This document shows, piece after piece, positions 16,169-33,842 of a stretch of DNA of 37,275 bases. How positions within the stretch are numbered: the first letter of the stretch is position 1; each line of letters starts with the position of its first letter. Source of the stretch: Moraxellaceae bacterium (GTDB lineage Bacteria; Pseudomonadota; Gammaproteobacteria; Burkholderiales; Rhodocyclaceae); assembly GCA_031119205.1 (NCBI GenBank), contig JAVHYF010000037.1:1-37275 (forward strand), read 5' to 3'. The notes beneath the pieces were generated by a model. The model saw only the letters and a list, made by a program, of their open reading frames with translations. It was not told the DNA's origin and ran no database searches. A program made the position numbers and the translations under genes.

Positions 16169-16281
16169 GAAGCCGTAACAAAACGATTCCGGCGTTGTTG
16201 TGCCGCCTTGCCGTACTACGTGTACTGTCTGTCGCGGCACGCCTAGCCAGAACCGTTACGCTTCGCTTCACTTACGGCTTC
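16169..16281 (-). repeat. Structured intergenic repeat, copy A
   Basis: Copy A of a dispersed element whose second copy is at 33737-33839 on plus. Reading the minus strand, in order: outer arm GAAGCCGTAA, the conserved segment GTGAAGCGAAGC, GTAAC, stem arm GGTTCTGGC, TAG, inner arm GTGCC, a conserved loop with GACAGTAC and GTACGGCAAGG, closing arms GGCAC and GCCGGAATC, and finally TTACGGCTTC, which pairs with the first arm. The core (16185-16254) aligns to copy B at 58 of 71 columns by hand. It begins one base after the yacG stop and ends 16 bases before the convergent GNAT stop. There are no genes in it and no T-tract. Confidence 0.85.
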
Positions 16282-16297
16282 CAAGCGCCCGGCAGGC

Positions 16298-16843
16298 TCA
16301 GTCGAGCGTGTCGAAGGCCGGGTGGTAGCGCAGCAGGCCGGTGATCGGTGCCCGCGCATCGCTGCCCCGCAGGGCGTGCGGCACCAGTTCCATCACCATG
16401 AAGGCCTCCGGCGGTGCGCCGCCCGGTTCGGTGTAGCGGCAATGCAGGCCATGGCGACCGGCCGGGGCGAAGCCGAAGCGCCGGTAGTAGGCCGGGTCAC
16501 CCAGCACTGCAACGGCCGCTACGCCCAGTTTGCTGCAGGCATGCAGGCCGGCGCAGACCAAGGCCGAGCCGATGCCGCCGCCTTGCCGCGATGGCGCAAC
16601 CGCCAGCGGTGCCAACCCCATCAGCAAGGCCTGTGGCCCATCGACTGGTCCTGCCGTCCGCATCGGCGAGAAGAGGATGTGGCCGGCGATGCCGTCGGCG
16701 TCCGCGGCCACGAGTGACACCAGCGGCTGCGCTTGCGCGCGCAGCAGGTCCACCAGTTTCGCTTCGGCGGGTGTGCTGAAGGCGGCGAGGTGCAGGGCAT
16801 GCACTGCGGCCTGGTCTGCCGCGGTCTCGTTGCGGATTTCCAT
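16298..16843 (-). CDS. GNAT family N-acetyltransferase
   Basis: A 181-residue GNAT acetyltransferase that transfers an acetyl group from acetyl-CoA to an unknown substrate. The start MEIRNETAADQAAVHALH is typical of YhbS-like members. The acetyl-CoA loop follows LAPLAVAPSRQGGGIGSALV (a Q/RxxGxG/A-type motif), then AVLGDPAYYRRFGF. The ATG follows the TGA of the upstream glyoxalase-like frame after one base (TGAGATG), so translation is probably coupled to that gene. It is the last gene of a DinB-glyoxalase-GNAT mini-operon. Confidence 0.88.
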   Translation of the reverse strand: MEIRNETAADQAAVHALHLAAFSTPAEAKLVDLLRAQAQPLVSLVAADADGIAGHILFSPMRTAGPVDGPQALLMGLAPLAVAPSRQGGGIGSALVCAGLHACSKLGVAAVAVLGDPAYYRRFGFAPAGRHGLHCRYTEPGGAPPEAFMVMELVPHALRGSDARAPITGLLRYHPAFDTLD

Positions 16844-16844
16844 C

Positions 16845-17246
16845 TCAGCCGGCCTGTGCGTCCGGCACTTCCTCGGTGAAGCGCAGACTGTTGCCGAAAG
16901 GATCGGTGATGGACATCTGGTCCAGACCCCAGGGCAGGCGTTAGATTGCCGGGCGATAGAAGTTGTACGGGCGCGAAGTGATGTCCGCATGGAACGTCAC
17001 CAGTCCCTTCATGCGCATGAACATCGCCGAGCCCGGGCAGGCGTCGCCGTGGTGTTCGCTCAGATGCAGGGTCAGGCCATGCCGGCTCAGCTGCATGTAC
17101 AGCGGCAGGCTGGGCTCGAAGCGGTGCTCCCAGTCGACATTGAAGCCCAGCCAGTCGGCGTAGCACTCGCGTGCTCGCTTCTCGTCGAAACTGCGCAGCA
17201 CCGGCACGGTGCCATGGATGTGAGGTTGTACGGGCGGCGTGGTCAT
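16845..17246 (-). pseudogene. Glyoxalase/bleomycin-resistance-like protein with internal nonsense codon
   Basis: A VOC-superfamily protein interrupted by one in-frame TAA (codon 102, 16941-16943). The part before it begins MTTPPVQPHIHGTVPVLRSF, has the family pattern CYADWLGFNVDWEHRF, and stops after NFYRPAI. The same frame continues without a shift into RLPWGLDQMSITDPFGNSLR, the conserved final strand of this family, and ends at a TGA that touches the GNAT start. A CAA-to-TAA change would explain it. The start overlaps the DinB stop by 4 bases. As it stands the product is 101 residues without its last beta strands. A sequencing error or stop readthrough are alternatives. Confidence 0.82.
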
Positions 17247-17782
17247 GTCTCATCCTCCGGGATCAGGAGCAACAGATCGGTGGCCCCCATGTCTTCGCCC
17301 GCCTGGCTGAGCAGCGTCGTGGCCTGGCCGCGATGATGCGTCTGGTGATTGAAGAAGTGCAGTAGCAGGTTGCCGAGCCGGCGGCCTACAGGCACGCCCT
17401 TCATGCTGCGATAGTGCAGCACGTGTTGCAGGTCGGCTTCGCTCAAGGCTGCGCACCAGTGCTCGATGCAGTCGTCCAGAAGCGCGCGGCGTGTGCGCAG
17501 TGTGTCGAGATCCTCGCAGACGGTCTGGTCCAGCGCGGTGGGCAAGGGCAGGGCGCGCACCGGGTCCAGTTGCGGGTGCCGGGCAGGGTGCAGCGCAAAG
17601 CGGTGCAGCCACACGGTGTCGGCGACGACCAGATGATTGAGCGTGCCCAGCAGGGAGCCGAAAAACGCGCCACGGTCCGCGCTCAGCGCTGCGGGCTCCA
17701 GACGGGCGCAGGCCTCCAGTAGTCGTTCATTCATCCACCGGTTGTAGCGGGCCATCAACTGGACCTGCGCGGGCGTGCTCAT
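17243..17782 (-). CDS. DinB-family protein
   Basis: A 179-residue four-helix-bundle protein of the DinB/YfiT metalloprotein group. QLMARYNRWMNERLLEAC at the N-terminus, LGTLNHLVVADTVWLHRF and LLHFFNHQTHHRGQATTLL provide the three histidines (NH, and HxxHHRG) expected to bind a metal. The C-terminus LLLLIPEDET is typical of the betaproteobacterial subfamily. Some relatives are mycothiol- or bacillithiol-dependent transferases, but substrate here is unknown. It is the first gene of a translationally coupled trio (ATGA overlap with the next gene) and diverges from the flavoprotein gene across 96 bases. Confidence 0.88.
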   Translation of the reverse strand: MSTPAQVQLMARYNRWMNERLLEACARLEPAALSADRGAFFGSLLGTLNHLVVADTVWLHRFALHPARHPQLDPVRALPLPTALDQTVCEDLDTLRTRRALLDDCIEHWCAALSEADLQHVLHYRSMKGVPVGRRLGNLLLHFFNHQTHHRGQATTLLSQAGEDMGATDLLLLIPEDET

Positions 17783-17878
17783 CGGAGTAGTGGGTCAGGC
17801 AAAGGAAAGCCGGATGCTAGCGCAGCGCAGGCGACATCGTGCGACACTGCGCGCCGTTGATGAAGGGAGTGGCCGGGC

Positions 17879-19183
17879 ATGCCGCAAGCAGGAAGTTCTG
17901 GAGACAGCGCGGTGTGCGACGCACAGGGCCGTGTCGCGGTTGCCGTCATCGGCGGCGGGCCCGCCGGCCTCATGGCCGCCGAGACGATGGCCGCGGCCGG
18001 CCTGCGCGTATCGGTGTTCGACGCCATGCCCTCGGTGGGCCGCAAGTTCCTGCTCGCTGGCGTGGGCGGCATGAACATCACCCATGCCGAGCCGTCCGCC
18101 GACTTCCGCAATCGCTACCGCGAACGCAGCGAAGAGGTCTCGCGCTGGCTGGATGTGTTCGATGCCGACGCGCTGCGCGATTGGGTGCATGGGCTGGGCA
18201 TCGAGACCTTCATCGGCAGCTCCGGACGGGTGTTTCCGCGCGAGATGAAGGCCGCGCCCTTGCTGCGTGCCTGGTTGCACCGCCTGCGCGAGCGCGGCGT
18301 CATCTTCCACCCGCGTCATCGCTGGCGGGGTTTCGACCAGGCCGGCACGTCCGTGCTGCATTTCGACACGCCCGCAGGGCCACAGCGATTCGAGGCCTCC
18401 GCCGTCGTGCTGGCGCTGGGCGGCGGCAGTTGGGCACGCCTTGGTTCGGATGGTGCGTGGCTGCCCTGGCTGCAGGCAAGCGGGGTGGACGTGGCACCGC
18501 TGCAACCGGCCAACTGCGGTTTCGATGTCGGCTGGAGCGAACACCTGCGCCAGCGCTTTGCCGGCCAGCCGGTCAAGACGGTGGAGCTGTCCTTCACCGA
18601 CCATCGCGGGCAACGGCATGCGCGCAAGGGCGAATTCATGCTGAGCGACACCGGCGTGGAGGGCAGCCTCATCTATGCCTTGTCCGCACCGCTGCGGGAC
18701 ACGCTTGCCTCACGAGGCGAGGCGATCCTTCAAGTCGACCTGCTGCCGGATCGCAGCGCTGCGCGGGTGCTGGCCGACGTTGCGCATCCGCGTGGCTCGC
18801 GCTCAATGGCCAGCCACCTGCAGAGCCGGGTCGGCATCGCCGGCATCAAGGCCGCGTTGCTGCGTGAATGCGCCAGTGCTGACGACTATGCGGAGCCGGC
18901 ACGGCTCGCAGCCATCATCAAGGCGCTGCCGATTCGCGTGACGGCGACACGTCCGCTGGACGAGGCCATCAGTACCGCAGGTGGCGTGCGCCTGGATGCG
19001 GTCGACCACCAGCTCATGCTCAAGGCCCTGCCGGATGTGTTCTGCGCAGGCGAAATGCTCGACTGGGAGGCGCCCACGGGCGGCTATCTGCTGACAGCCT
19101 GCTTCGCCAGTGGCGTCGTGGCCGGGCAGGGCGTCGTCGCCCGTCTGCACGGCGCAAGCCCGCAACCGGCCGCTACGCTGTAG
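17879..19183 (+). CDS. FAD-dependent flavoprotein of the HI0933/TIGR03862 family
   Basis: A 434-residue predicted FAD-binding oxidoreductase. The Rossmann motif VAVIGGGPAGLMAAETMA follows a short leader of about 20 residues. GRKFLLAGVGGMNITHAEP is the hallmark of the HI0933-like (BaiN/RdsA) group, and VVLALGGGSWARLGSDG resembles the TIGR03862 branch. The C-terminal FAD motif includes FCAGEMLDWEAPTGGYLLTACFASG. Substrate unknown. The leader is longer than usual. A later start closer to the Rossmann fold is possible, but the ATG at 17879 has GAAGGGAG about 11 bases upstream. Confidence 0.9.
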   Translation: MPQAGSSGDSAVCDAQGRVAVAVIGGGPAGLMAAETMAAAGLRVSVFDAMPSVGRKFLLAGVGGMNITHAEPSADFRNRYRERSEEVSRWLDVFDADALRDWVHGLGIETFIGSSGRVFPREMKAAPLLRAWLHRLRERGVIFHPRHRWRGFDQAGTSVLHFDTPAGPQRFEASAVVLALGGGSWARLGSDGAWLPWLQASGVDVAPLQPANCGFDVGWSEHLRQRFAGQPVKTVELSFTDHRGQRHARKGEFMLSDTGVEGSLIYALSAPLRDTLASRGEAILQVDLLPDRSAARVLADVAHPRGSRSMASHLQSRVGIAGIKAALLRECASADDYAEPARLAAIIKALPIRVTATRPLDEAISTAGGVRLDAVDHQLMLKALPDVFCAGEMLDWEAPTGGYLLTACFASGVVAGQGVVARLHGASPQPAATL

Positions 19184-19301
19184 GCGGCCGCTGCTGTGCA
19201 GGCAGGCGGCCTCCTGCTGCTTGTGTGCCGCGATTCCGTGTCTTTTTGCGACGTATCAAGTCGACTACCGCCGGATTGGAACCTACTGAACGAGGTGGCA
19301 T

Positions 19302-19313
19302 CACACCGGTGTG
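19302..19313. promoter_or_regulatory. 12-base palindrome upstream of the HPF-like gene
   Basis: A perfect palindrome CACACCGGTGTG stands 57 bases before the HPF-like start in a 186-base gap that otherwise shows no gene. It could be a dimeric regulator site. The evidence is only the symmetry. Confidence 0.2.
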
Positions 19314-19369
19314 GGCCGCAGGTTTTCGCGTCACCCATGCCACGAGCAAACTCGTACAGGAGGCTTGAT

Positions 19370-19720
19370 ATGAGAATCGAAGTCAGCATCGACACACGCG
19401 CAGCGGATCGCACGAGCGTCATGGCCGCCCTGGCGGCGGAGGTGGAAGCCGGCCTGAAGCATTACCGCATGCGTCTGACCAGTGCGCAGCTGCACTTGCG
19501 CGACACCAACGGCCCGCGCGCCGGCGTCGACCACCGTTGTGCGCTGGAAGTGAGGCCGGCCGGTTCAGACCCGATTGCGGTCACGCACGAGGCGGCGACC
19601 GTGAACGAGTCGGTCAAAGGGGCCATCGCGAAGATGAACCAGCGGCTGGCGACCGTCTTCGGCAAGCTGGAGACGGTCCGCGACCGCGAGCGCATTTCGG
19701 CAAGTGGTTTGCCGAGCTAA
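19370..19720 (+). CDS. HPF/RaiA-family ribosome-associated protein
   Basis: A 116-residue protein resembling the S30AE (HPF/RaiA) family, whose members bind the 30S decoding region and hold ribosomes inactive in stationary phase. Seen here: an N-terminal strand MRIEVSID, a helix, then SAQLHLRDTNGPRAGVDHRC and ALEVRPAGSDPIAVTHEAAT, the beta pattern of this group. The C-terminal helix is SVKGAIAKMNQRLATVFGKL. The start has AGGAGG 7 bases before it, a very strong ribosome site. It is more divergent than canonical HPF, so a modified role is possible. It converges on the Nudix gene. Confidence 0.8.
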   Translation: MRIEVSIDTRAADRTSVMAALAAEVEAGLKHYRMRLTSAQLHLRDTNGPRAGVDHRCALEVRPAGSDPIAVTHEAATVNESVKGAIAKMNQRLATVFGKLETVRDRERISASGLPS

Positions 19721-19771
19721 ACCGAGCTGAGTTTCGGCTCCTCCCTGGTTCCTTGACTACGACTCAGCTGC

Positions 19772-20200
19772 TCAATCGATGAGTCTGTCCGCTGCCAGCT
19801 TCGCGATGACCTGTCGCGCGGCTGGCGCGCAGCGGGCAGCGTCTGCCGCGCTGAACCACGCCATCGCTTCGATTTCGGCCTGCGGTGCGGGTGTGTCCGT
19901 GCTCGTGCCGAGATAGCAGCTCATCCGCACCCGGCGCTGCACGGCCAGGCCGTGCGATACATCCTCGACCGTGCAGTAGTGGCGCAGGCTGTCGCCATCG
20001 AGACGCACCCCCAGTTCCTCGCTCACCTCGCGCTGCAGGCCGGCGTCATCGCTCTCGCCAGGCTCGCGTTTGCCACCCGGCAGATACCAGGCATCGCGTC
20101 CACGTGTGCGCACGACCAGCAGGCGGCGGTCGCTCACGCATACCCACGCCAGCACGTCGAGCGCCTGCTGGTGCGCCGGCATGGCTTGCTCGTCCGTCAT
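19772..20200 (-). CDS. Nudix hydrolase
   Basis: A 142-residue Nudix protein that hydrolyses a nucleoside-diphosphate-linked compound. The complete Nudix box lies at about residues 42-64. It begins GGKREPGE and includes REVSEELGV, with all canonical Gly, Glu and Arg positions. VLAWVCVSDRRLLVVRTRGRDAWYLP is the usual preceding sheet. Substrate is not readable. It starts 7 bases after the mmsA stop and is probably in one transcript with it. Confidence 0.93.
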   Translation of the reverse strand: MTDEQAMPAHQQALDVLAWVCVSDRRLLVVRTRGRDAWYLPGGKREPGESDDAGLQREVSEELGVRLDGDSLRHYCTVEDVSHGLAVQRRVRMSCYLGTSTDTPAPQAEIEAMAWFSAADAARCAPAARQVIAKLAADRLID

Positions 20201-20207
20201 CCGCCCG

Positions 20208-21701
20208 TCATTTCAGCGTGGGCATGACGAACTCGGCGCCGGCACGGATGCCGGTCGGCCAGCGGCTCGTCACGGTCTTCAGCCGCGTGTAGAAGCGGAC
20301 GCCCTCCATGCCGTGCATGGCGTGGTCGCCGAACATCGACTGCTTCCAGCCACCGAAGCTGTGGAAAGCCATCGGCACCGGGATGGGCACGTTTACGCCC
20401 ACCATGCCGATCTGCACGCGCCGCACGAACTCGCGGGCGCAATCGCCATCGCGGGTGAACAGCGCCACGCCATTGCCATATGCATGGGAGTCGATCAGTT
20501 TCACGGCTGCATCGAAATCCGGCACGCGCACCACGGCAAGCACCGGGCCGAAGATCTCTTCGCGCCACAGGCTCATGTCCGGCGTCACATGGTCGAACAG
20601 GCAGCCACCGAGGAAGAAGCCGGCCTCATGCGCCGGCACCTGCAGCGCGCGGCCATCCACCACCAGCTTCGCGCCTTCCGCTACACCGGCATCTACATAG
20701 CCGCGCACCTTGTCGAGGTGCGCGCGGGTGACCAGTGGGCCCATCTCTGCGGCAGGGTCCGTGCCCGGGCCGACACGCAGCGCGCGCGTACGGGCCGCCA
20801 GCCGCTCCACCAGGGCATCCGCCACATCGCCCACCGCCACCGCAACGGAGATCGCCATGCAGCGCTCGCCGGCCGACCCGTAGGCGGCGCCCATCAGCGC
20901 GTCCACTGCCTGGTCGAGATCGGCGTCCGGCATCACGACGAGATGGTTCTTGGCACCGCCCAGCGCCTGCACGCGCTTGCCCTGCGCCGTGCCGGTGGCA
21001 TAGATGTGGCGCGCTACCGGTGTGGAGCCGACGAAACTCACCGCCGCGACGTCCGGATGCTCCAGCAGGCCGTCGACCGCTTCGCGATCACCCTGCAGCA
21101 CGTTGAACACGCCGTCGGGAAGCCCTGCCTTCTGCAACAGCTCCGCCAGCATCAGGCTGGCCGACGGGTCACGTTCGGAAGGCTTCAGGACAAAGGCGTT
21201 TCCGCAGGCCAGCGCAACCGGCAGCATCCACAGCGGCACCATGGCCGGAAAGTTAAATGGTGTTATGCCGGCGACCACGCCCAGCGGCTGGCGCATGCTG
21301 TAGCTGTCCACGCCGCCACCGACCTGCTCGGAGAATTCGCCCTTGATGAGGTGAGGAATGCCGCAGGCGAACTCCACCACCTCCAGCCCGCGCGTCACTT
21401 CGCCCAGCGCATCACCGGGCACCTTGCCGTGTTCGCGGCTGATGATCGCCGCCAGCTCGTGCTGATGCTGTTCCAGCAGTTCCTTGAAGCGGAACATCAC
21501 GCGCGCACGGCGCAGTGGTGGCGTATCGCCCCAGGCGGGCTGCGCAGCCTTTGCTGCCTGCACAACTGCCTGGATGTCGCTGCCGTCGGCCAGCACGACC
21601 TCGGCGCAGGGCTCGCCCAGGGCCGGGTTGAACACCGGGGCGCGTCGCTGGCCGTGGCCGCTCGTGCGAAGACCACCGATGAAATGGGAGATCTGCTCCA
21701 T
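20208..21701 (-). CDS. mmsA: Methylmalonate-semialdehyde dehydrogenase (CoA-acylating)
   Basis: An NAD-dependent aldehyde dehydrogenase that converts (methyl)malonate semialdehyde to propionyl- or acetyl-CoA in valine, thymine or inositol breakdown. The 497 residues are full length. Motifs are [59 protein letters not shown] and the catalytic Cys in [19 protein letters not shown] and [15 protein letters not shown], typical of MmsA, follow near the end. The start at 21701 has AGGAG about 10 bases upstream. The 39 open codons before it are not family-like. The gap of 188 bases to the divergent GGDEF-EAL gene should hold its promoter. No other valine-pathway genes are adjacent, so the physiological substrate is inferred. 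Confidence 0.94.
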
Positions 21702-21889
21702 GTGCGTGCTCCTGCCCGTAGATGGGGAGATTCTGTCAGCAAACACCGCCGGCTGCCGCGATGGCCCCGCATAAAGCTCATCGGGCCGCCCGCAAGCCTG
21801 TACGGCATGTCCTGACAATGCCGCTATGCTAAGAACGATTGCAGCATCCGGCGGGCAGGTTTCCCGGCCCGGCCATCCATGGAGGACGG

Positions 21890-24115
21890 ATGAGCACCCT
21901 GAGCAGCGCGGAGAGTCCGGTTGCGACGCGGGACGCGTCGCAACTGGCAGACGTGGTGGACAGTTGTGACGCCGCCTTCATCGTGGTGGCCCGCGACGGC
22001 AACATTGCGTTCGCGAACGCCGGGTTCCTGCGCCTGCTCGGCTTCTTGCCGGCCGAGGTGCTCGGCCGCCCGCCCGCGGCCCTGCTGGGGGGACACCATA
22101 CCGATCGTGCTGTACTGGCTGCGCTGAGCGATGCATCGACCGGCCAGGCTGAACTGCTGCTGTACACCCGCGAAGGCCGCCCACTCTGGCTGGCTGTGAC
22201 GGTCGGCGTGCTGCCGGCGACCGCAGGCCTGCCTGACGGAACGGTGTGGACCTTGCGCGACATGACGTCGGCAAAACTGCACGGACTGCTGCAGAGCCGG
22301 GTGCTGGAAGCCCTGGTGCGAGAAGAGCCCCTGCCCGAGGTGATGGCACTGGTGTGTCGTGAGGTCGAGCGCATCGCCCCGGAGGTGGTTGCCACCATCC
22401 TGTCGGTGGACTGTGAAGGCTGCATGCATCCCCTGGCCGGCCCCAGCATGCCGGCAGTGGTCGCCCAGGCCATCGACGGCCTGTCCATGGGGCCGCAGGC
22501 AGGCTCCTGCGGCACGGCCGCCTGGCGTGGCGAGCCGGTCGTCGTGACCGACATCGAGAACGATCCCCTGTGGCGCGACTACCGGCAGCTGGTGCTGCCG
22601 CTGGGACTGCTGGCCTGCTGGTCCAGCCCGATCAAGGCCAGTGACGGCCGCGTGCTGGGTACTTTCGCTTTCTACTATCACAGCCGGCGGGGGCCGGATG
22701 ACTTCCACCAGAACCTGGTGGATATCAGCGTGCACCTCTGCGCACTGGCACTGGAGCGTGAGGAGACGCGGGCACGCATCTACCAGCTGGCGTTCTACGA
22801 CGCCCTCACCGGGCTGCCCAATCGCACGTTGCTGCGGTCCCGCGCCGAGCGCGCACTGGCGGAGGCCGCCCGCAGCAAGACACAACTGGCGGTGCTGTTC
22901 ATTGACCTCGACAACTTCAAGGCGATCAACGACACCCAGGGGCATGCGGCCGGCGATGAACTGTTGCGCCAGGTGGCGCGTCGTCTGGCGGGCGAGCTGC
23001 GTGGCAGCGATCTGGTCGGGCGACTGGCTGGCGACGAGTTCGTGGCCTTGCTGTCCCACTGCTCCGGCAGCCGCGCTGCCGATCTGGTCGAACGCGTGCT
23101 GCAGGCCTTGCGTGTGCCGGTGGATACCGGCGGACGAGCCACGGTGCCGGCAGCAAGCATCGGCGTGGCCTTGTATCCGGATGACGGAGAGGACGTCGAC
23201 AGCCTCTTGCGCCATGCCGATATGGCGATGTACCAGGCCAAGACCGGAGGGCGTGGCAGTTTCCGTTTCTTCAATGCGGAGATGAACCGCCAGCGCCAGG
23301 AGCGCGTGCAGATGGAAGCCGCCTTGCGCCGCACCCTGCGCGATGGCGGATTGCAACTGCACTACCAGCCGCAGATGCGGACGGAGGCCGGCGATTCACT
23401 CACGCTGCATGGTGTGGAGGCCCTGTTGCGCTGGCATGACCCGCAGCTGGGCCAGGTGCCGCCCATGCGTTTCGTGGCACTTGCCGAGGAGTGCGGCCTC
23501 ATCGGTGAACTCGGGCGCTGGGTACTCGCCGAAGCCTGCCGCCAGCTGTCTGACTGGCGCAGGCGTGGTTGCGCGGTGCCGCGCGTTTCCGTCAACCTTT
23601 CGGCCAGCAATTTCCGCGACCCTGCGCTGCCGGTCTTCATCGAACACCTGCTGCGCACCCATGCGCTCGTCCCGGCCGACCTGACCCTGGAGATGACCGA
23701 GAGCGTGATGCTGGACCCGGACCCCGCCGTGCTGGCGGTGGTGGACACCATTCATGTCGTCGGCATCCGCCTGTCGATCGATGACTTCGGCACCGGCTTC
23801 TCCAGCCTCAGCTGCCTGCACCGTTTGCCGATAGGCGAGATCAAGCTGGATCGCAGTTTCGTCTTCGACGTCGAGCACAGCGAAGCTGCGCGTGCACTCA
23901 CCACCACCGTGCTGCGCATCGGTGAGAGCCTGAGCATGGAAGTGGTGGCGGAAGGGGTGGAGACGGATCTGCAACGTCGTTTCCTGACCGGGCAGGGCTG
24001 TGGCGTGCTGCAGGGGTTCCTGTTTGCGAAGCCGTTGTCCGCAACGGCCTTCGAAGAGTGGCTGGTGGCACAAGGGCCAGCGGCGCCTCAGCCGGGGGCC
24101 AGCGCGCAGGCCTGA
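21890..24115 (+). CDS. PAS-GAF-GGDEF-EAL c-di-GMP turnover protein
   Basis: A predicted soluble bifunctional protein, 741 residues, with no membrane helix. PAS domain (about 20-120, [17 protein letters not shown]), GAF domain (about 145-290, [18 protein letters not shown]), GGDEF domain (about 300-465) and EAL domain (about 485-730). The cyclase motif reads LAGDEF, a variant often still active, and the inhibitory I-site RGSD is intact. The phosphodiesterase motifs are present: [35 protein letters not shown] and VVAEGVET. Net activity cannot be told from sequence. The start was chosen at 21890 with GGAGG just upstream; the start at 21839 is possible. The 3' end overlaps the convergent VOC gene by 28 bases. 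Confidence 0.93.
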
Positions 24116-24609
24116 GTCAGCAAGGGATATCGCGTCGCATCGAAGAAGCTGCGCCCCGCCCGGTAGATGCGATCGGCGCCGGTGTCCGGTGGTGGGCCTG
24201 GCTCCGTCGCGCCTTCGAAGGTGAGCTCCAGTTGCACGCCGCTCGGGTCATACACGAACAGCTGCCACAGCGAAGTGCCCGGCACCGGGAACTCGCGCCA
24301 GTCCAGCCCCGCGGCGCGGAAGCGCGCGATGTAGGCGTGGTAGCCGGAGCAGGACAGCGATACATGATCGATGGCGGCTGTGCCCTTCGGCGCCTTGCCG
24401 TCGTCCCCCAGCGCGGGCCCGCCCGCGTAGACGTGGATGATGGCCTGCCCTCCCGGTTGCGGGCAGGCCAGCCAGGCACCGGGGTAGCCGAAGTCCGGCC
24501 GCGCAACCTCGCGCAGGCCGATGAGCTCGCACCAGAAGCGCCGGGTCGCTGCGAGGTCGCCGGTCTTGATGGCCAGGTGGAAGAGGCCGTGCACGACGGG
24601 CATTGTCAT
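24088..24609 (-). CDS. VOC-family (glyoxalase/dioxygenase-like) protein
   Basis: A 173-residue vicinal-oxygen-chelate protein. Likely metal ligands are His in HGLFHLAIKTGD, His in AAIDHVSLSCSG and Glu in GVQLELTFEG, the spacing seen in extradiol dioxygenases and glyoxalases. The tail after residue 135 ([20 protein letters not shown]) is extra to the core fold. The start overlaps the LysR stop (ATGA) and has GGAGG 7 bases before it, so the two are co-translated. Being linked with a LysR regulator and a monooxygenase-transporter cluster suggests a role in the same catabolic pathway, but substrate and reaction are unknown. Confidence 0.88.
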   Translation of the reverse strand: MTMPVVHGLFHLAIKTGDLAATRRFWCELIGLREVARPDFGYPGAWLACPQPGGQAIIHVYAGGPALGDDGKAPKGTAAIDHVSLSCSGYHAYIARFRAAGLDWREFPVPGTSLWQLFVYDPSGVQLELTFEGATEPGPPPDTGADRIYRAGRSFFDATRYPLLTQACALAPG

Positions 24610-25595: not shown

Positions 25596-25709
25596 GCCGA
25601 TGGAGGCGGGCTGATGGGACGCGGGGCGCTCCGCGCTTGCGCGCGGGTCCGCGTCGATCTTAGCCCAGCCGATGGTGTCGCTGTCCGTGAACATGATCGT
25701 GTCCGGTGC

Positions 25710-27236: not shown

Positions 27237-28813
27237 TTCTGTACCTTCCGTTCGCAGGCGTCGGTGAGCCAGAACACGGCGAGGCCGGTGGCCACGCTGA
27301 GGAGGATGGCGGCCCACAGCGTGGGCAGTTCCATCATGGCGCTGCTCTCCAGGATGAGATGACCCAGGCCGCGGGCGCCGGTCAGCCATTCGGACAGCAT
27401 GGCGGCGAGCACGGCCTTCGGTGCTGCGACGCGGATGCCGGTGAAGAGATGCGGTATGGCGAAAGGGAAGCGCAGCATGGCGAAGGTCTGCCAGGCGGAT
27501 GCGGCATTCACGCGCATCAGCTCCAGATGCGTGCTGCGCACGCCCTGGAAGCCGCGCACTGCGTTGACCAGCATCGGGAAGAAGCAGGCCATCCACACCA
27601 CGATGACGCCGGACAGCAGGTTGCGGCCGAAGCTCAGCGTGATGAGCGGGGCGATCGCCACCATGGGGGCGCTGCGCACGGCGATCACGAACGGCATCAG
27701 CGTGCGTTCCAGCGCAGGCAGCTGGATGAACAGGCCGGCCACCAGCAGTGCCGACAGCACGCAGGCACCGAGGCCGAGGCCCGCCGTGCGCAGCGTGAAA
27801 CCGAGGTTGCTGGCAAAAATTTGCGGCGTGGCCTGGAAGGTGGCGAAGGTCTCCTGCGGGGAGGGCAGCAGGTAGGGCGGGATGCTGAACGCATGGATGA
27901 GGCCTGACCAACCGGCCAGCAGCAATGCCATGCAGGCGATGCTCCAGGCTGCGACATGCAGCACGCGACGCGGCCCGCCCTCACGCAGCGAAGCGCTGCC
28001 GGCATTCAGCACGGCGACGGCTTCCCAGCGCACGAAACGGCGCTCCAGCGCGTGCACCAGGCCATATGCGGCTACCGCCAGCAGCACGCACAGGATGACT
28101 GCCATCCAGACCTGTTCGATCTTGAAGGAGAACATCGCGTAGGCCATCATGGTGCCGACGCCCTGCGTGGCGCCCGTCCACTCGGAGACGATGGCGCCGA
28201 GCACGGCGGAGGCGGCGGCCACCTTGAGCCCCGAGAAGGCGAAGGGCAGGGCGTTCGGCAGCAACAGCATGCGCAGTCGTTGCCAGCGTGAAGCGGCCAT
28301 CACGGTGAACAACTCGTCCATGCCGCGCTCGCAGGCACGCAGCCCTTGCAGCAGGCCGACCAGGATCGGGAAGAAGCTCGCGAGCGCAGTCACCACGATG
28401 CGCGGTGCCAGTCCGTTGCCCAGCCAGATGATCAGGATGGGTGTGAGCGCGATCAGCGGCATGGCCTGCACCACGATTGCGGCGTTGTAGATCGGATCGC
28501 GCGTGGTGCGTGCCAGGGTGGCCAGCACGGCCAGGACGGTGGCGACCGCGAGTGCCAGTGCAAAGCCACCGGCAATCGCCTGCAATGTCGGCGCCAGATG
28601 CGGCCACAGCATGGCGTGGTCGCGCACGAAGGCCTGCGCGACCGCACTGGGGGCCGGCACGGAGATCGGCAGCAGGCCAGCACCCGCCGCCAGTTCCAGC
28701 ATGCCGAGCACGGCGGCCGCGAGCCCCAGTGGCAGCAGGTGTTGCGATAGGCGCGCCAGCTGGCGGCGCAGGCCAGTATGTGCGGGCATGGGCAAGCTGT
28801 GGCTGAGGCTCAT
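27233..28813 (-). CDS. ABC transporter permease, two fused permease domains (NitT/TauT type)
   Basis: A 526-residue inner-membrane protein made of two SsuC/TauC-like permease units in tandem. Each unit has a membrane set and its own EAA-type loop. Unit 1 has VVQAMPLIALTPILIIWLGNG and SEWTGATQGVGTMM; unit 2 has AVRSAPMVAIAPLITLSFG and SEWLTGARGLGHLI. A linker near residues 260-285 joins them. Usual family members are about 260 residues and work as dimers, so this single chain likely forms the whole pore. Starts and stops overlap by ATGA with both neighbours (ATPase upstream, monooxygenase downstream), which indicates strict co-translation. Confidence 0.93.
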   Translation of the reverse strand: MSLSHSLPMPAHTGLRRQLARLSQHLLPLGLAAAVLGMLELAAGAGLLPISVPAPSAVAQAFVRDHAMLWPHLAPTLQAIAGGFALALAVATVLAVLATLARTTRDPIYNAAIVVQAMPLIALTPILIIWLGNGLAPRIVVTALASFFPILVGLLQGLRACERGMDELFTVMAASRWQRLRMLLLPNALPFAFSGLKVAAASAVLGAIVSEWTGATQGVGTMMAYAMFSFKIEQVWMAVILCVLLAVAAYGLVHALERRFVRWEAVAVLNAGSASLREGGPRRVLHVAAWSIACMALLLAGWSGLIHAFSIPPYLLPSPQETFATFQATPQIFASNLGFTLRTAGLGLGACVLSALLVAGLFIQLPALERTLMPFVIAVRSAPMVAIAPLITLSFGRNLLSGVIVVWMACFFPMLVNAVRGFQGVRSTHLELMRVNAASAWQTFAMLRFPFAIPHLFTGIRVAAPKAVLAAMLSEWLTGARGLGHLILESSAMMELPTLWAAILLSVATGLAVFWLTDACERKVQK

Positions 28814-29592
28814 GCGACCAGCTCCGCGGATGCGTCCGGCGCGAACAGCTGGTCCCGCAGCATGTTGATGGCATCGGTGAAGGCCGGCAGCTTCATCATG
28901 GCCTGGCTGCGCGGCCGCGGCAGGTCGATCGCCAGCTCGGCCGTGATGCGCCCCGGGCGGGGCGACATCACGAACACCTTGTCGGACATGAACACCGCTT
29001 CCGACAGGCTGTGCGTGACCATCAGCGCGGTGGTGCCGGTCTCCGCCCAGATGCGCAGCAGCTCCAGGTTCATGCGCTGGCGGGTGATGTCGTCCAGCGC
29101 ACCGAAGGGCTCGTCCAGCAGGAGGATGTGCGGATCGAGCACCAGCGAACGGGCAATCGCCACGCGCTGCTGCATGCCGCCGGAAAGCTGCGACGGCAGC
29201 GCCTGTTCGAAACCCTTGAGGCCGACCAGTTCGATCAGCTCTTGCGGATGACGGCTCGCGATGGGCGCGCGGCGCGCGACCGTGAGCGGCAGGGCGACGT
29301 TCTCCATCACGGTCTTCCAGGGCAGCAGCGTGGCCTCCTGGAATACGAAGCCGATGCGCCGTGCGAGCCGTGCGCTCTGCGGCGGCGCGCCTGCCAGCGT
29401 GATGTGGCCGCTGGTGGGCTGGGTGATGTCCGCTACCAGCCGCAGCAGCGTCGATTTGCCGCAGCCGCTGGGGCCGATGATGGTGCCGAAGGCGCCGGAG
29501 GCGAGGCCCAGCGAGACGCCCTCGAGCGCCTTGATGCTCCCCTTCTCCAACGCGAATGTCATGCCGACCTGGTCGACCTGCAGTGCTGCCAT
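28810..29592 (-). CDS. ABC transporter ATP-binding protein (NitT/TauT type)
   Basis: The cytoplasmic ATPase subunit, 260 residues. Walker A GPSGCGKST (about 40-48), Q-loop FVFQEATLLPW, signature LSGGMQQRVAIARSL, Walker B ILLLDEPFGALDD and the switch His in ALMVTHSLSEAVFM are all intact. MSPRPGRI is characteristic of the SsuB/TauB group. It stands between the binding-protein gene (16-base gap) and the fused permease (4-base overlap). Confidence 0.95.
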   Translation of the reverse strand: MAALQVDQVGMTFALEKGSIKALEGVSLGLASGAFGTIIGPSGCGKSTLLRLVADITQPTSGHITLAGAPPQSARLARRIGFVFQEATLLPWKTVMENVALPLTVARRAPIASRHPQELIELVGLKGFEQALPSQLSGGMQQRVAIARSLVLDPHILLLDEPFGALDDITRQRMNLELLRIWAETGTTALMVTHSLSEAVFMSDKVFVMSPRPGRITAELAIDLPRPRSQAMMKLPAFTDAINMLRDQLFAPDASAELVA

Positions 29593-29608
29593 GATTGCGA
29601 CCCCTGCC

Positions 29609-30652
29609 TCAGGCGTAGATGGATTTCAGCAACGACTGATCGACGATCTCGTCGGCCGTGAAGCGGATGTTGGCGCCGCCTTCGCGGGCCAGTTCGATGG
29701 CGTCATCGAACACCTTGCGGTCCAGCCACAGCGCCTTGCTGCCGGTGCCCTTGGGGAGGATGAACTTCGGGTAGAGCTTCGCCTCGGCGGTCTCCCGCAC
29801 CAGATCCAGGCCTGGCTGGCCGTACTTCTGCACGGTGAGCCGGGCACCTTCTTCGGGATTCGCGGCGAACGCCGCCCAACCCTTGCTGACGGCACGCATC
29901 CAGCGCGTCATCACGTCGCGGCGGGTGGCGAGCGTCTGCTCGGTGGCGAACAAGGTCATGGAGGCGTCGACGTCGCCGAGGTCCGCCATCGACACGACTT
30001 CCACGTCGATGCCGCGCAGCTGCAGCGACAGGCCTTCGTTGGTGGCCAGTCCCATGTAGGCGTCGACCTGCCCGGTGGCCAGCACGGCGGGGTCGCCGCC
30101 GGTGGGGACGAAGTTGATCGTGGAGGGATCGACCTTGGCGCGCTTGAGCAAGGTCATCACCACGGCGCGTCGTTGCGCACCGACGGCGATGGTCTTGCCA
30201 CGCATGTCCTGGAAGCTGCGGATGGGCTTGGACTTCAGGCTCATCATGCCGCTGAGCGAGCCCTGGTAGACACAGCCGATGGCACGTACCGGCATGCCCT
30301 TGCTGCGCGCGAGGGCGACGTTCATGGGGTCGCGGTCGCCGATATCCGCCTGCCCTGCCGCAACCAGCGCGATGCTGTCGACGCCGGGGCCGCCGGCCTT
30401 GTAGACGACGTCCAGCTTCTCGTCGCGGAAGAAGCCCCGTTCCAGTGCCACGAAGTGGCCGGCGTACTGCACCAGCTTCAGCCAGTTCATCTGCACGGTG
30501 ATCTGGTCCAGCCCGGACGCAATGGCGGGGGCGGACAGCAGCGCGGAGGGCGCGACCAGCGCCGTGCCGGCGAGCGCGCTGCCGGCTTTCAGGAAATTGC
30601 GGCGTGTGGTTACGCCGGAGGGAGATTGGGAGGGAAATTCCTTGACCGCCAT
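29609..30652 (-). CDS. ABC transporter substrate-binding protein, NMT1/THI5-like, Tat signal
   Basis: A periplasmic binding protein of 347 residues. The N-terminus carries a twin-arginine signal (TTRRNFLKAGSAL, then a hydrophobic stretch ending SAPAIASG), so it is exported folded. The mature part begins DQITVQMNWLKLVQYAGHFV and has ERGFFRDEKLDVVYKAGGPG, close to NMT1/THI5-like proteins such as ThiY and RibY, which bind pyrimidine or flavin precursors. Related SsuA/TauA proteins bind sulfonates. Ligand not determinable. It is the first gene of the ABC-monooxygenase operon, with a 166-base upstream gap holding a candidate operator. Confidence 0.92.
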   Translation of the reverse strand: MAVKEFPSQSPSGVTTRRNFLKAGSALAGTALVAPSALLSAPAIASGLDQITVQMNWLKLVQYAGHFVALERGFFRDEKLDVVYKAGGPGVDSIALVAAGQADIGDRDPMNVALARSKGMPVRAIGCVYQGSLSGMMSLKSKPIRSFQDMRGKTIAVGAQRRAVVMTLLKRAKVDPSTINFVPTGGDPAVLATGQVDAYMGLATNEGLSLQLRGIDVEVVSMADLGDVDASMTLFATEQTLATRRDVMTRWMRAVSKGWAAFAANPEEGARLTVQKYGQPGLDLVRETAEAKLYPKFILPKGTGSKALWLDRKVFDDAIELAREGGANIRFTADEIVDQSLLKSIYA

Positions 30653-30755
30653 GTTGAGCCTCTTCGTTCCCGGCGCGATTCGCCGCTGTCTGGTTGCGAT
30701 GGCGCTACATCAGAAGGCGCCGTCCTGGAACGAAGAATGGTCAACTTTGCGTGCT

Positions 30756-30776
30756 TCGAATAGCAGAGAATTTCGA
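30756..30776 (-). promoter_or_regulatory. Inverted repeat, possible LysR-type operator
   Basis: On the minus strand TCGAA and TTCGA are separated by exactly 11 bases, an arrangement like the T-N11-A box of LysR regulators. It lies about 104-124 bases before the binding-protein start, where an activator site would be expected. The arms are short, so chance is not excluded. Confidence 0.25.
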
Positions 30777-30818
30777 TAAGCCTGATGCCGAAATGTGAGC
30801 ACCGCGCAGGGTGCATGG

Positions 30819-31616
30819 TCACATCAGGCGCAGCAGGAGCATCACCGCCACGCCCAGCAGCAGGGCCGCGAAACCGCGCTGGACGTGATGTGGCGCCAGG
30901 CTGCGCACGAAGCGGCGACCCACCAGCATGCCGGCAGCCACACTGGCGGCGAACCAGGGGGTGATGACGGCGGGCAGCACTGCGCCGTGCGACAGCGCGT
31001 TGGCGAGCGAGCCCAGGCTGACCAGCGCGACGATCATCAGGGAAGTGGCAACGATCACGTGCATCGAGGCGTCGGTGTAACGCCGTAGCAGGGGTACGAC
31101 CGCGAAGCCGCCGCCCACCCCCAGCAGGCCGCTGAGGAAGCCGGCCACGGCGCCGACGCCGACGAACAGCACGGCGGTGGCGGCGGACCACCTGAAGCGG
31201 CCGGACTCCGGGTCGATGTGGCCGGTGAGCGGGCCTTCCACCCAGCCCAGTTCGGCGGTCGCACTGCTGGCATTGCGGAGCAGGCGCAAGGCGACGAAGA
31301 CCAGGACGGCGGCGAAGGCCACGGTCAGCAGGCTGGTCGGCACGGCGTGCGCCAGCATGACGCCCAGCCAGGAGAAGGGCAGGCTGGCGGCTGCGATCAG
31401 CAGCGCCGCGCGATAACGCACCAGGCGCCGGCGCAAGCCCTCGGCGGTTCCCACGCTGGCACCGAGGCAGGTGGCCAGCAGTGCGACCGGTGCCGCCTGT
31501 TCGAGCGACCAGCCCTGGGTGGCGACCAGTGCCGGCACCGACAGGATGCCGCCGCCTGCGCCGCTCAGGCCCATCACGATGCCCACGAAAACGCCGGCCA
31601 GCAGGGTCAGGAGCAT
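30819..31616 (-). CDS. TauE/SafE-family membrane exporter
   Basis: A 265-residue polytopic membrane protein of the TauE/SafE group, linked in studied cases to export of sulfite, sulfoacetate or similar anions. [16 protein letters not shown] near the N-terminus and [18 protein letters not shown] near the middle are the paired family motifs. About eight hydrophobic segments fill the chain. A central loop ([19 protein letters not shown]) is hydrophilic. It is in the same direction as the ABC cluster, 166 bases upstream of its first gene, so it may be in the same transcript or separate. If linked, sulfite release by the monooxygenase pathway would make sense (inference). Confidence 0.88.
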
Positions 31617-31766
31617 GGAGTCACCGCAGGGAGCCGGGTGAATCCCGGCGAATGGACCGAACTTACCAGTTTGCAGGCAGCTTGCTGTGCGGCCTCAGGC
31701 ATACCCGGATTCGGCACGCGGACGGGTGCGAACGACGGAAAAGAAAAAGCGGAGAGGGGGAGAAGC

Positions 31767-31843
31767 TGGCGCATCCGACACGATTCGAACGTGCGACCCC
31801 TGCCTTCGGAGGGCAGTACTCTATCCAGCTGAGCTACGGATGC
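31767..31843 (-). tRNA. tRNA-Arg (anticodon CCG)
   Basis: A complete 77-base tRNA with encoded CCA. Acceptor GCATCCG pairs with CGGATGC, followed by discriminator G. The D-arm includes TAGCTCAGCTGGATAGAG. The anticodon stem CTGCC/GGCAG encloses CTCCGAA, giving anticodon CCG, which reads CGG codons. The T-arm is GCACG-TTCGAAT-CGTGT. A weak promoter-like TAAGAT with GC-rich discriminator lies about 40 bases upstream on minus (31882-31887). The 150 bases downstream, toward TauE, hold a T-rich minus-strand stretch and nothing else recognisable. Confidence 0.97.
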
Positions 31844-31943
31844 GTGGGGATGCCGGCCCCGGGAGGGGCAGGCAGGCCGCGATCTTACTGCATCGGGCCG
31901 GTGCAGGCGAGCGCCACGGCCATACCCATGACGGGAACGCGTA

Positions 31944-31949
31944 TATAAT
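31944..31949 (+). promoter_or_regulatory. Candidate -10 element for the cytochrome c gene
   Basis: A perfect TATAAT followed by CGCGCC lies 35 bases before the cytochrome ATG. No good -35 is visible at 16-18 bases. GAGGA at 31975-31979 is the ribosome site. Confidence 0.5.
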
Positions 31950-31983
31950 CGCGCCTTTATTTTGTCTGCCGTCTGAGGATCTC

Positions 31984-32478
31984 ATGGCGAAGGTGAGCGG
32001 GTTTCGTCGCTGGGCAATGCCCGCGATTGCGGTTGTAGCAGCGGGTGTGCTCGTGGCTTGCAGCAAGCAGGAGCCTGTAGATGAAGAAGAAACTGCGCAA
32101 CTGATCCAGCCCGTGGCCAAGGTGGAACTGTCTGGCGCGGCACCGGCGGCAAGTGCTGCGCCGCGGACCGGTGAGCAGGTGGTGAATAGCGTATGCGGTG
32201 CCTGCCACAACGCTGGCGTGGCCGGTGCGCCCAAGACGGGCGACAACGCTGCCTGGGCAACGCGCTTCAAGGATGGTCTGGACGGCATGGTCAAGATCGC
32301 GATTGCCGGCAAGGGCGCGATGCCGCCCAAGGGCGGTGGTGCCGACCTGACCGAACTGGAGATCACCCGTGCGGTGGTGTTCATGGCCAACAAGTCGGGT
32401 GGCAGCTTCAAGGAACCGGCAGCGCCGGCGCCCGCTGGCGGTGAGTCCGCGCCGGCCGAGGCTCCGGCCAAGAGCTGA
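31984..32478 (+). CDS. Lipoprotein cytochrome c (c5-type)
   Basis: A 164-residue single-haem cytochrome for periplasmic electron transfer. The signal peptide ends in lipobox LVAC (Cys at residue 26) followed by Ser, so it should be an outer-membrane-directed lipoprotein. A linker rich in Glu and Ala leads to the haem site CGACH (71-75). The axial Met is in GKGAMPPKGG (about 113), and the fold ends VVFMANKSGG. A final Pro/Ala tail of about 25 residues is low-complexity. The pattern is that of cytochrome c5/c555. It has its own promoter and terminator, so it is a single-gene unit. Confidence 0.93.
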   Translation: MAKVSGFRRWAMPAIAVVAAGVLVACSKQEPVDEEETAQLIQPVAKVELSGAAPAASAAPRTGEQVVNSVCGACHNAGVAGAPKTGDNAAWATRFKDGLDGMVKIAIAGKGAMPPKGGGADLTELEITRAVVFMANKSGGSFKEPAAPAPAGGESAPAEAPAKS

Positions 32479-32495
32479 CCGGCTTCTGCTGAATG

Positions 32496-32525
32496 AAAAA
32501 GGCGACCCGCGGGTCGCCTTTTTTG
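32496..32525. terminator. Bidirectional rho-independent terminator after the cytochrome gene
   Basis: AAAAAGGCGACCC/GGGTCGCCTTTTT, with a GC centre, forms a perfect stem bounded by A and T tracts. It starts 17 bases after the cytochrome stop and 25 bases past the minus-strand DUF3830 stop, so it serves both. Confidence 0.9.
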
Positions 32526-32550
32526 TTTGTGCGGGCTTGCCGGTGAACGC

Positions 32551-32961
32551 TCAGAGCGCCTCGAACACGATGTCCTGCGCGCCTTCCCACAGGCACTTCA
32601 CGCCCAGCGCGCGCAGGTTCTCCTTGCCTTCCACGATGGTCAGGAAGTGGTTGCCGGCCAGTTGGCCCAGCTTGCTGGAGAAGGAGCAGGCGCCGTAGGC
32701 CATGATGATCTCGGTTTCGCTGTAGCCGCCGGGGTAGAACAGCACGTCGCCCACGGACGGGTGGCTGGTGTGGTTCTCGAAGTCGACACCCAGCTTGAAG
32801 TCGCCCATCGGCACCCAGCAGCCTTCACCGCTCCAGCGTACGTGGATCAGTTTCTGCCGGTACGGCAGCATCTTCAGGAAAGCGGCCACGGTCTGCGGGG
32901 CGTCGGGGTGGGTTTCGGCGATGAAGCTGAAGTCGCCGGCGGTGATGCGGATCTTGCTCAT
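32551..32961 (-). CDS. DUF3830 family protein
   Basis: A 136-residue protein of the DUF3830 family, predicted to have a cyclophilin-like beta-barrel. It starts MSKIRITAGDFSFIAETH, contains VRWSGEGCWVPMGDF and DVLFYPGGYSETEIIMAYG, and ends LWEGAQDIVFEAL. No signal peptide. Function is not established. The family is often found beside amidohydrolases and hydantoin- or pyrimidine-like catabolic genes, which fits here. It is the last gene of the second ABC cluster, 79 bases after the LOG gene. Confidence 0.85.
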   Translation of the reverse strand: MSKIRITAGDFSFIAETHPDAPQTVAAFLKMLPYRQKLIHVRWSGEGCWVPMGDFKLGVDFENHTSHPSVGDVLFYPGGYSETEIIMAYGACSFSSKLGQLAGNHFLTIVEGKENLRALGVKCLWEGAQDIVFEAL

Positions 32962-33040
32962 GGTGGGTCTCGTCTGAACTGCAGATTGTTTATGTCGGTG
33001 AGCGCAGGGGTGGCGCCGCAGTGGCCGTTCAGGTCGCCGC

Positions 33041-33646
33041 TCAGGTCGTCGCCTTCGCCGGGAACCACTTCTCCACCGTCGGCATCTCCCAGGCGTCCAT
33101 GCGTGCGATGAGCTGCTTCGGGTCGGCGTCGAGCTGGATCATGTCCACGTGCTCGATGCGCATGAACTCCCCCTTCGCCATGTTCTCCAGCATCGCGCGC
33201 ATGGGGTTGTAGAAGCCGTTGATGTTCAGCACGCCGCTGGGCTTCACGTGGTCGCCCAGTTGCGTGAGCGTCGCCACCTCGAACAGCTCTTCCAGCGTGC
33301 CCAGGCCACCGGGCAGGGCGATAAAGCCGTCGGCGAGATCCGCCATGCGCGCCTTGCGGCTGCGCATGTCCGGCGTGATCTCGTGACGGGTCAGGCCGGG
33401 GTGCAGGTGGCCGCGTTCGAACAGGCGCTGGCTGATCACGCCATGCACCTCCCCGCCGGCCGCGAGCACCGCGTCGGCGGTGACGCCCATCAGGCCCTTG
33501 TGGGTGCCGCCGTACACCAGCGTGATGCCCAGCTCCGCCAGTACGGTGCCGAGAGCGCAGGCGCCTTCGGCGTACACCGGCGAGATGCCGAAGTTGGAGC
33601 CGCAGTACACGGCGATGCGTTTGAGTTTGAGTGTCGAGGTCGTCAT
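33041..33646 (-). CDS. LOG-family phosphoribohydrolase (TIGR00730)
   Basis: A 201-residue Rossmann-fold protein of the lysine-decarboxylase-like LOG family. Members release a free base and ribose 5-phosphate from nucleoside 5'-monophosphates, including cytokinin nucleotides. Motifs are IAVYCGSNFG, ITLVYGGTHKGLMG, the conserved Arg in DMRSRKARM (about 94-101), and LPGGLGTLEELFE (about 111-123), the PGGxGTxxE active site. It sits in an operon with an amidohydrolase and ABC transporter, so it may act on a catabolic nucleotide-like intermediate. It was formerly misannotated as a lysine decarboxylase. Confidence 0.9.
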   Translation of the reverse strand: MTTSTLKLKRIAVYCGSNFGISPVYAEGACALGTVLAELGITLVYGGTHKGLMGVTADAVLAAGGEVHGVISQRLFERGHLHPGLTRHEITPDMRSRKARMADLADGFIALPGGLGTLEELFEVATLTQLGDHVKPSGVLNINGFYNPMRAMLENMAKGEFMRIEHVDMIQLDADPKQLIARMDAWEMPTVEKWFPAKATT

Positions 33647-33736
33647 GGTTCTGATGATGCGATGTCTGTGCGTGTCAGGGTCACTCAGGCGCCAATGATG
33701 TTCATGTCCTCAGTGCCCTGCGAAATCAGGGAAGGG

Positions 33737-33839
33737 CCGAGCAGGGTGGAGCGAAGCGGTTCTGGCTAGGCGCGCCGACGCAGACAGTACATCCACGTAC
33801 GGCAAGGAGGCGCAACGACGCCAGAACCATCCTGCTCGG
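33737..33839 (+). repeat. Structured intergenic repeat, copy B
   Basis: Copy B of the element found at 16169-16281. Read on plus: outer arm CCGAGCAGG, conserved GTGGAGCGAAGC, GGTTCTGGC, TAG, inner arm GCGCC, GACAGTAC, GTACGGCAAGG, GGCGC, GCCAGAACC, then CCTGCTCGG closing the outer stem. The GGTTCTGGC/GCCAGAACC stem is perfect. The inner arm differs from copy A at one base pair (C-G here, T-A there). It ends 3 bases from the stop codon of the minus-strand permease, so it lies directly 3' of that gene, in the same relative orientation as copy A to yacG. Confidence 0.85.
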
Positions 33840-33842
33840 GCT

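Follow-up and report, generated by a model that had tools for sequence, protein, structure and literature searches.

What are the two similar hairpin-forming repeats carried by a contig of Moraxellaceae bacterium (assembly GCA_031119205.1, contig JAVHYF010000037.1, positions 1 to 37,275, the 37,275-nucleotide stretch hereafter called the window), and to which kind of element do they belong? A first-pass annotation, made from the letters of this stretch, had described two cores of common fold, at 16185-16254 on the minus strand (copy 1) and at 33758-33828 on the plus strand (copy 2), and had read in them selection on a folded form. We find that the element is dispersed through the source genome (G000, 4.63 Mb; the other G numbers and the L numbers designate other genomes and loci) and through many Betaproteobacteria. 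Both hairpins are probably copies of a Correia-type non-autonomous mobile element, a miniature inverted-repeat transposable element (MITE) of about 112 bp, in which the core rather than the terminal repeat is conserved.

A folded core and its copies

Both cores stand at the positions and on the strands first proposed. A machine alignment, running from GGTTCTGGC to GCC(A/G)GAA(C/T)C, returned 57 identical columns of 71, compared to 58 of 71 in the hand count, so that the similarity holds. The common fold was recovered as well, each core presenting a 9-bp stem, an inner stem and a GTAC/GTAC hairpin, the loop lengths being 5 and 6. The folding z-scores on the named strands are −4.07 and −4.42 (200 shuffles each), and the opposite strands fold too, with z-scores of −2.92 and −4.46. 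Beyond the core lies an outer pair of arms, AAGCCGTAA/TTACGGCTT in copy 1 and CCGAGCAGG/CCTGCTCGG in copy 2, whose sequences are unlike between the copies. The whole element of copy 1 covers 16169..16281 on the minus strand (113 bp, L001), its two ends reading GAAGCCGTAA and TTACGGCTTC. Copy 2 covers 33733..33842 on the plus strand, where the arms GGGCCGAGCAGG and CCTGCTCGGGCT flank the core, the arm ends being approximate and set by eye.

A search pattern of 26 bases, written from the two window cores and matching both by construction, gave 27 matches in the whole source genome at up to three mismatches, and none in the reversed genome or in shuffled windows. Among these, L021 has the look of a degraded copy or of a chance match. 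A covariance model (R1) was built from 26 copies of the source genome only; its whole-genome search returned 30 matches there at E <= 0.001, the last two of them weak. Copy 1 was matched at 16182-16256 (89.8 bits, E 6.3e-20) and copy 2 at 33756-33831 (91.3 bits, E 2.4e-20). The two window copies thus have further companions in their own genome. None of the Rfam families matched the window at gathering score, and an Rfam scan of 10 element loci gave a tRNA and a 6S RNA, both outside the element.

Outside the source genome, the R1 survey of relatives gave matches in 25 of 61 genomes, the source included. A survey of the class at E <= 1e-5 found matches in at least 18 of 369 genomes (again with the source included), of which 15 belong to other orders; this is a lower bound, as 13 candidates were scored per genome and 13 of the 30 copies of the source genome were recovered. 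R1 counts were also made in ten genomes, all reached via the core pattern first and with 150 candidates scored in each: at least 50 matches were present in N. gonorrhoeae, at least 35 in N. bergeri and at least 128 in N. sicca, and from at least 7 to at least 58 per genome in Cupriavidus, Chromobacterium, Janthinobacterium, Glaciimonas, Acidovorax, Variovorax and Aquitalea. The core-pattern search returned at least 111 stretches, mostly from Betaproteobacteria by title. The Cupriavidus metallidurans CH34 megaplasmid (NC_007974.2) has 12 places that resemble window copy 2, and this copy had no match in a phage collection. Tandem arrays of four matches, spaced by about 106-116 bp, were seen in Silvimonas (L154, 1813-2243) and in Janthinobacterium sp. 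344 (G438:C17:807955-808374). Ends of the TATAGT type were observed outside Betaproteobacteria, in Streptococcus sp. 121 (L180), Avibacterium paragallinarum (L175) and Regiella insecticola (L234); copies outside Betaproteobacteria are perhaps due to horizontal transfer.

Selection on the folded form, first suggested by the stems of two copies, is supported by two-sided pair changes across many more. In 26 copies from the source genome, aligned without the model and with L021 excluded (alignment A1), 14 of the 22 pairs show two-sided changes. In 111 matches from the source and related genomes (alignment A2), 21 of the 22 do, in an alignment fitted to the model, whose counts therefore lean towards structure, and in which a few rows duplicate one copy (L013/L014) or read a copy from its other strand (L087). 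The excess of compensatory changes is present in both alignments, none of 500 shuffles, which ignore the relatedness among copies, having reached any of five covariation measures. A2 contains 359 two-sided cells, compared to a shuffled mean of 78.6, and has a covariation score of 0.461, compared to 0.154; the covariation was lost when the partners were slid by 1 to 3 columns. The loops are constant across copies while the stems vary, and the end of the inner stem presents tandem G-A/A-G in 12 of the 26 copies, G-C/C-G in 9 and other combinations in 5. Additionally, the outer arms pair copy by copy in most copies, a feature beyond what the first-pass annotation saw.

The pairs that depart from Watson-Crick rules indicate which strand folds. 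On the strand named at the outset, the inner stems of 242 distinct cores hold 174 GU or UG against 65 AC or CA pairs (103 against 27 by copies) and 296 GA or AG against 22 CU or UC (188 against 65 and 312 against 22, respectively, before repeat removal), with a bias in these core counts from the model, which tolerates GU better than AC. The outer arms are the cleaner strand test because they were found with symmetric scoring, and in the arms GU exceeds AC by 71 to 26 (53 to 12 by copies). In 60 fresh loci, for which the prediction had been set beforehand, the corresponding counts were 41 against 7 and 58 against 0, and 19 against 5 in the arms; these loci are high-scoring, non-random matches, taken in numbers of 20, 20, 10 and 10 from four of the ten genomes, with 2 of 62 dropped. 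The bias favours the named strand, which is therefore the one that fits the fold. At both window copies, the strand with the better fit to the fold is antisense to the gene at the right end, and to call the element a structured mRNA element of the abutting gene is therefore too simple.

Arms, ends and neighbouring genes

The arms were delimited by an ungapped script with symmetric scoring. In a set of 200 copies, from which duplicates, copies with a short core and those close to the end of a locus had been removed, the pairing score of an arm with its own partner averaged 7.3, compared to 2.0 for swapped arms, and half of the copies attain a score of 8. The corresponding means in the source genome are 8.0 and 2.6, the own score exceeding the mean of the swapped ones in 28 of 30 copies. 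One arm family, K (GAAGCCGTAACAAAATGG), is dominant in the genus of the source genome and another, G (GAGCGGCTAACAAAACTC), in G060; the modal length of the whole element is 112 bp in both. Shortened derivatives produced by deletion and solo ends occur as well. Weak relatives form inverted pairs about 30 nt apart at L070 (1396-1468 and 1501-1575) and L132 (505-578 and 612-684), a CCCGAAGGG-like sequence lying within or next to each pair, an arrangement that is somewhat BIME-like.

Short repeats flank part of the elements. Each distinct site was counted once, and elements were included if they had a whole or partial core. On this basis, identical 3-mers were found at the two ends in 22 of 38 copies of family G (1000 shuffles: mean 9.6, maximum 17) and in 12 of 38 copies of family K (mean 4.1, maximum 9), and all of them are TAA/TTA. 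In the fresh copies, the best of six boundary offsets tried gave identical 3-mers in 8 of 43, again all TAA/TTA (shuffle mean 1.5, maximum 7).

In the window, the right end of copy 1 is directly adjoined by the stop codon TAA (16166-16168) of yacG, encoding the DNA gyrase inhibitor YacG (15974..16168, plus strand; PF03884, E 4.7e-25), and a GNAT acetyltransferase gene (16298..16990, minus strand; PF13508 and PF00583), convergent with yacG, lies on the left. The right end of copy 2 adjoins the stop codon (33843-33845) of an ABC transporter permease gene (33843..34805, minus strand; PF00528, E 5.3e-27), of which the start codon is uncertain; a gene of the LOG / 'possible lysine decarboxylase' family (33041..33646, minus strand; PF03641, E 4.8e-35) follows downstream of copy 2, in the same direction as the permease.

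Both window copies thereby obey a right-end rule seen across the wider set. Among copies with enough flank, 162 lie outside the Neisseria group (a list of our own, which includes viral contigs with TATAG ends and a few non-betaproteobacterial loci), and the stop codon of an open frame stands within 60 nt to the right alone in 77 of them, to the left alone in 11, to both sides in 35 and to neither in 39; the same figures for 27 Neisseria-group copies are 2, 5, 0 and 20. A second set of 37, after removal of 2 duplicates and 6 short-flank copies, gave 18, 3, 5 and 11. Measured from the arm ends in 160 non-Neisseria copies, the stop codon of an antisense gene is abutted by 75 right ends and a stop codon by 17 left ends (67 copies with the right end alone, 9 with the left alone and 8 with both), compared to 3 to 8 hits per side when the boundary was shifted by 20 to 40 nt. 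The ratio of right only to left only is 14/1 in the source genome, 13/0 in its genus, 11/1 in G060, 10/3 in Cupriavidus, 3/2 in Chromobacterium, 1/1 in both Glaciimonas and Acidovorax, and 14/0 in the others. In 88 of 190 non-Neisseria copies the dominant frames on the two sides, with strands called from open frames, both run antisense to the folded strand, compared to 27 copies in which both are sense, and in several genome groups the commonest copies have the folding strand antisense to the abutted gene.

At the 3′ end of groEL, read in 34 cases, the core follows right after the stop codon in G000, G002, G003, G005, G010 (three loci) and L197, with L413, L416 and L440 not counted as core-bearing; most of the remaining ends present an ordinary T-tailed hairpin, by eye. 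Two groEL loci (L416 and L420, from G001 and G007) have a different hairpin with a GTAC...GTAC stem at the same place. Of 30 yacG 3′ ends read, the one in the source genome carries the element. One copy (L005, 1461-1535) stands some 40 nt beyond the 3′ end of a 6S RNA gene (1593-1775), in the same orientation as the copies behind protein genes. In three genomes of two genera (L019, L117 and L140, from G000, G002 and G019), the core lies in the leader just before the start codon of a gene whose reading begins MAQYV, which we take to be ettA; these copies have near-identical arms, are sense to the gene and are possibly domesticated.

Mobility and rival explanations

If the hairpins are copies of a mobile element, the element would have been moved in trans by a transposase, now or formerly, and would insert into TNA targets, a class to which the stop codons TAA and TGA belong. 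An insertion at the end of a gene would be tolerated because the duplication would leave that gene a stop codon. One strand would have to fold for the element to spread, either as single-stranded DNA or as RNA, so that loops would stay constant and stems would keep pairing, and the arms would need only to remain complementary. Copies that place the folding strand in the messenger would be lost or avoided, by selection or at insertion.

Comparison of genomes gave one readable site, in the genus of G060: it is filled in G060 and G062, the core is partly deleted in G065, and in G064 the element is absent and no inverted repeat is present. Two further sites of this genus show only a degraded element or a poor alignment. 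The yacG locus was discarded as an empty-site test, the flank behind yacG being too divergent among the 30 loci. A resident transposase of the IS5/IS4 type was rejected as the mover in three of five genomes, where PF01609 is absent; the other two (G004 and G043) have PF01609 transposase loci, which may yet supply a mover there.

Several observations weigh against mobility as set out here, or against the positional regularities that go with it. The G064 junction is not clean, and gain and loss are therefore indistinguishable at that site. Identical end 3-mers occur in 0 of 14 family-K copies of the source genome, all 12 cases in this family lying elsewhere, and those of copy 1 differ (TTG and TTA). 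The copies of the source genome may be old, with ends that have lost their repeats, or may have another history. DDE_Tnp_1 (PF01609) has no match in G000, G019 and G060, all three rich in copies, and among the places listed for two arm patterns in 6 + 1 genomes, no convergent pair of arm ends 0.5-3 kb apart was seen by eye. As many as 98 of 258 non-Neisseria copies, and 11 of the Neisseria group, had no arm that scored high enough to be called. As for the gene ends, they are those of open frames with 100 codons or more, without annotation, and p-values are overstated because the copies are related. In the fresh set, for which the rule had been predicted (n = 60), a stop codon is on the right only in 18, on the left only in 8, on both sides in 18 and on neither in 16, an orientation in the same direction that is not significant (p = 0.076); its Glaciimonas copies are reversed (1 right, 4 left), and by arm ends (n = 43) the counts are 15 right only, 7 left only and 4 both. 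Stop-codon abutment is found in 0 of 20 copies of the Neisseria group, and among 5 plasmid copies, 4 of them with (incomplete) gene tables, 0 of these 4 have an abutting gene on the right. Our confidence in a mobile element was lowered by the 0 of 14 end repeats and by the unclean G064 junction.

Could the hairpin rather serve the host at the 3′ end of the right-end gene, as a terminator or as an mRNA stabiliser maintained by host selection? Right ends that adjoin stop codons in 75 of 160 armed copies, the core behind the groEL stop where most others have a T-tailed hairpin, and the copy past the 6S RNA gene would all agree with such a role, as would the missing end repeats of the source genome and the G064 junction. 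However, the strand with the better fit to the fold is the antisense and not the mRNA strand, which makes it hard to see the element as a simple terminator of the abutting gene; a scan that admits loops of 3-8 only found no intrinsic terminator-like site at either window copy, and the source genome is alone in carrying the element among the 30 yacG 3′ ends. We consider this explanation unlikely. A regulatory or non-coding RNA of the host, either a small RNA or a leader read in the direction of the named strand, with dispersal as a side effect, seems quite improbable. The covariation and the strand asymmetry lie on the strand that it needs, leader copies precede the MAQYV start in three genomes, and Correia elements of Neisseria tend to lie near predicted non-coding RNAs (PMC5039591). 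Against it, copies outside the Neisseria group most often lie antisense to the genes on both sides (88 of 190, compared to 27 sense to both), the consensus promoter scan of both window-copy stretches returned no promoter-like site, and no Rfam match lies over the element.

The variable arms allow two other accounts. Palindrome repair by template switching might keep them complementary without selection, so that only the loops would be selected; the long unbroken arms that differ between copies fit this, but the mismatches of the internal loops persist throughout, and repair towards a perfect palindrome should erase the excess of GU over AC seen in the arms (53 against 12 copies). We give this account little credence. 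Alternatively, the core would insert into the loop of a terminator hairpin that was already in place, and the arms would be host sequence. The differences between arms, the long unbroken stems of L003, L005 and L006, the unclean G064 junction and the 0 of 14 end repeats are all compatible with such insertion; the single readable site gives it no support, as G064 has no inverted repeat where the element is absent, and arm families K and G are common to many copies of a genome. Insertion into terminators is thus very unlikely indeed. The reading as a Correia-type mobile element with a conserved core remains the one that we favour.

A broader proposal goes further, and we offer it as a speculation of low probability: a Correia-type superfamily whose mobility would depend on one folded core strand, as single-stranded DNA or RNA, independently of the terminal repeats, and in which, taken jointly, arms could be rewritten if they stay paired, stop codons would be safe landing sites and the folding strand would be kept off the messenger. 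If so, it would explain why comparison of terminal repeats has not settled the mover of Correia elements. The usual view of Correia-type elements is reversed here, with a constant core and a variable terminal repeat. A Correia-like core in Cupriavidus, Acidovorax, Janthinobacterium, Glaciimonas, Chromobacterium and others offers environmental hosts for mobility tests, and the abutment of stop codons together with the strand bias provides testable clues to the mode of insertion and to copy survival.

Comparison with Correia elements and other known systems

Copies from N. gonorrhoeae, N. bergeri, N. sicca and N. elongata present the core CAAGGCG..GCAGACAGTAC..GTACGGCAAGGC..GCAACGCCG and are bounded by TATAGTGGATTAAATTTAAATCAGGAC or TATAGTGGATTAACAAAAATCAGGAC, both of which are among the Correia repeat patterns given in PMC2649163. 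As the Neisseria loci with Correia ends were chosen by the core pattern, the R1 genome counts are the fairer test of this link. The Correia repeat had been found only in Neisseria as of 2009, with its mobilising mechanism not determined, and the Neisseria elements are described with binding or cleavage by RNase III, promoters at the ends and an IHF site in the long form (PMC2649163). They are given as 100-155 bp long with duplication of TA, and the transposase of IS1106 (IS5 family) has been suggested for them (PMC3898611); PMC10969869, PMC2229807 and PMC5039591 are consistent with this general picture. Among the papers listed from the open-licence literature, judged by title and abstract, we found no description of Correia elements outside Neisseria or of dispersed betaproteobacterial hairpins like these.

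The present element resembles Correia elements (CREE/NEMIS) in core sequence and fold, in its similar length and inverted arms, in its lack of coding capacity, and in its many dispersed copies and shortened derivatives. It differs in that the window copies, families K and G and the other arms read all lack the 26-bp Correia repeat TATAG(C/T)GGATTA..., and in that the arms vary between copies and genomes. The end repeats, where seen, are TAA/TTA (3 bp) and not TA. Correia lengths are 104-108 or 153-157 bp, and the same script gave 104-108 bp in 21 of 25 Neisseria rows, whereas copy 1 measures 113 bp and the modal length of K and G is 112 bp. The right ends adjoin stop codons here, unlike those of the 20 Neisseria-group copies. 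Judged by the sequence of its core, the element is of the Correia kind, but without the terminal repeat, target duplication and length of the Neisseria form.

Other short repeats share part of these features. The MITEs RUP, ERIC and YPAL are also short, form long hairpins and have been proposed to move in trans (PMC2229807). The terminal repeat of RUP, however, resembles that of a resident insertion sequence (PMC2229807), whereas here the terminal arm is variable and the core constant. REP/BIME sequences with RAYT transposases are likewise dispersed extragenic palindromes, and the weak relatives at L070 and L132 form inverted pairs; the elements described here are longer and have three stems with internal loops that stay constant, and some of the copies carry end repeats. 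Integron attC sites lie behind stop codons, only one folded strand matters in them, and their stem sequence is free while the structure is kept. Unlike attC sites, the element has a constant inner core and variable outer arms, and its copies are dispersed.

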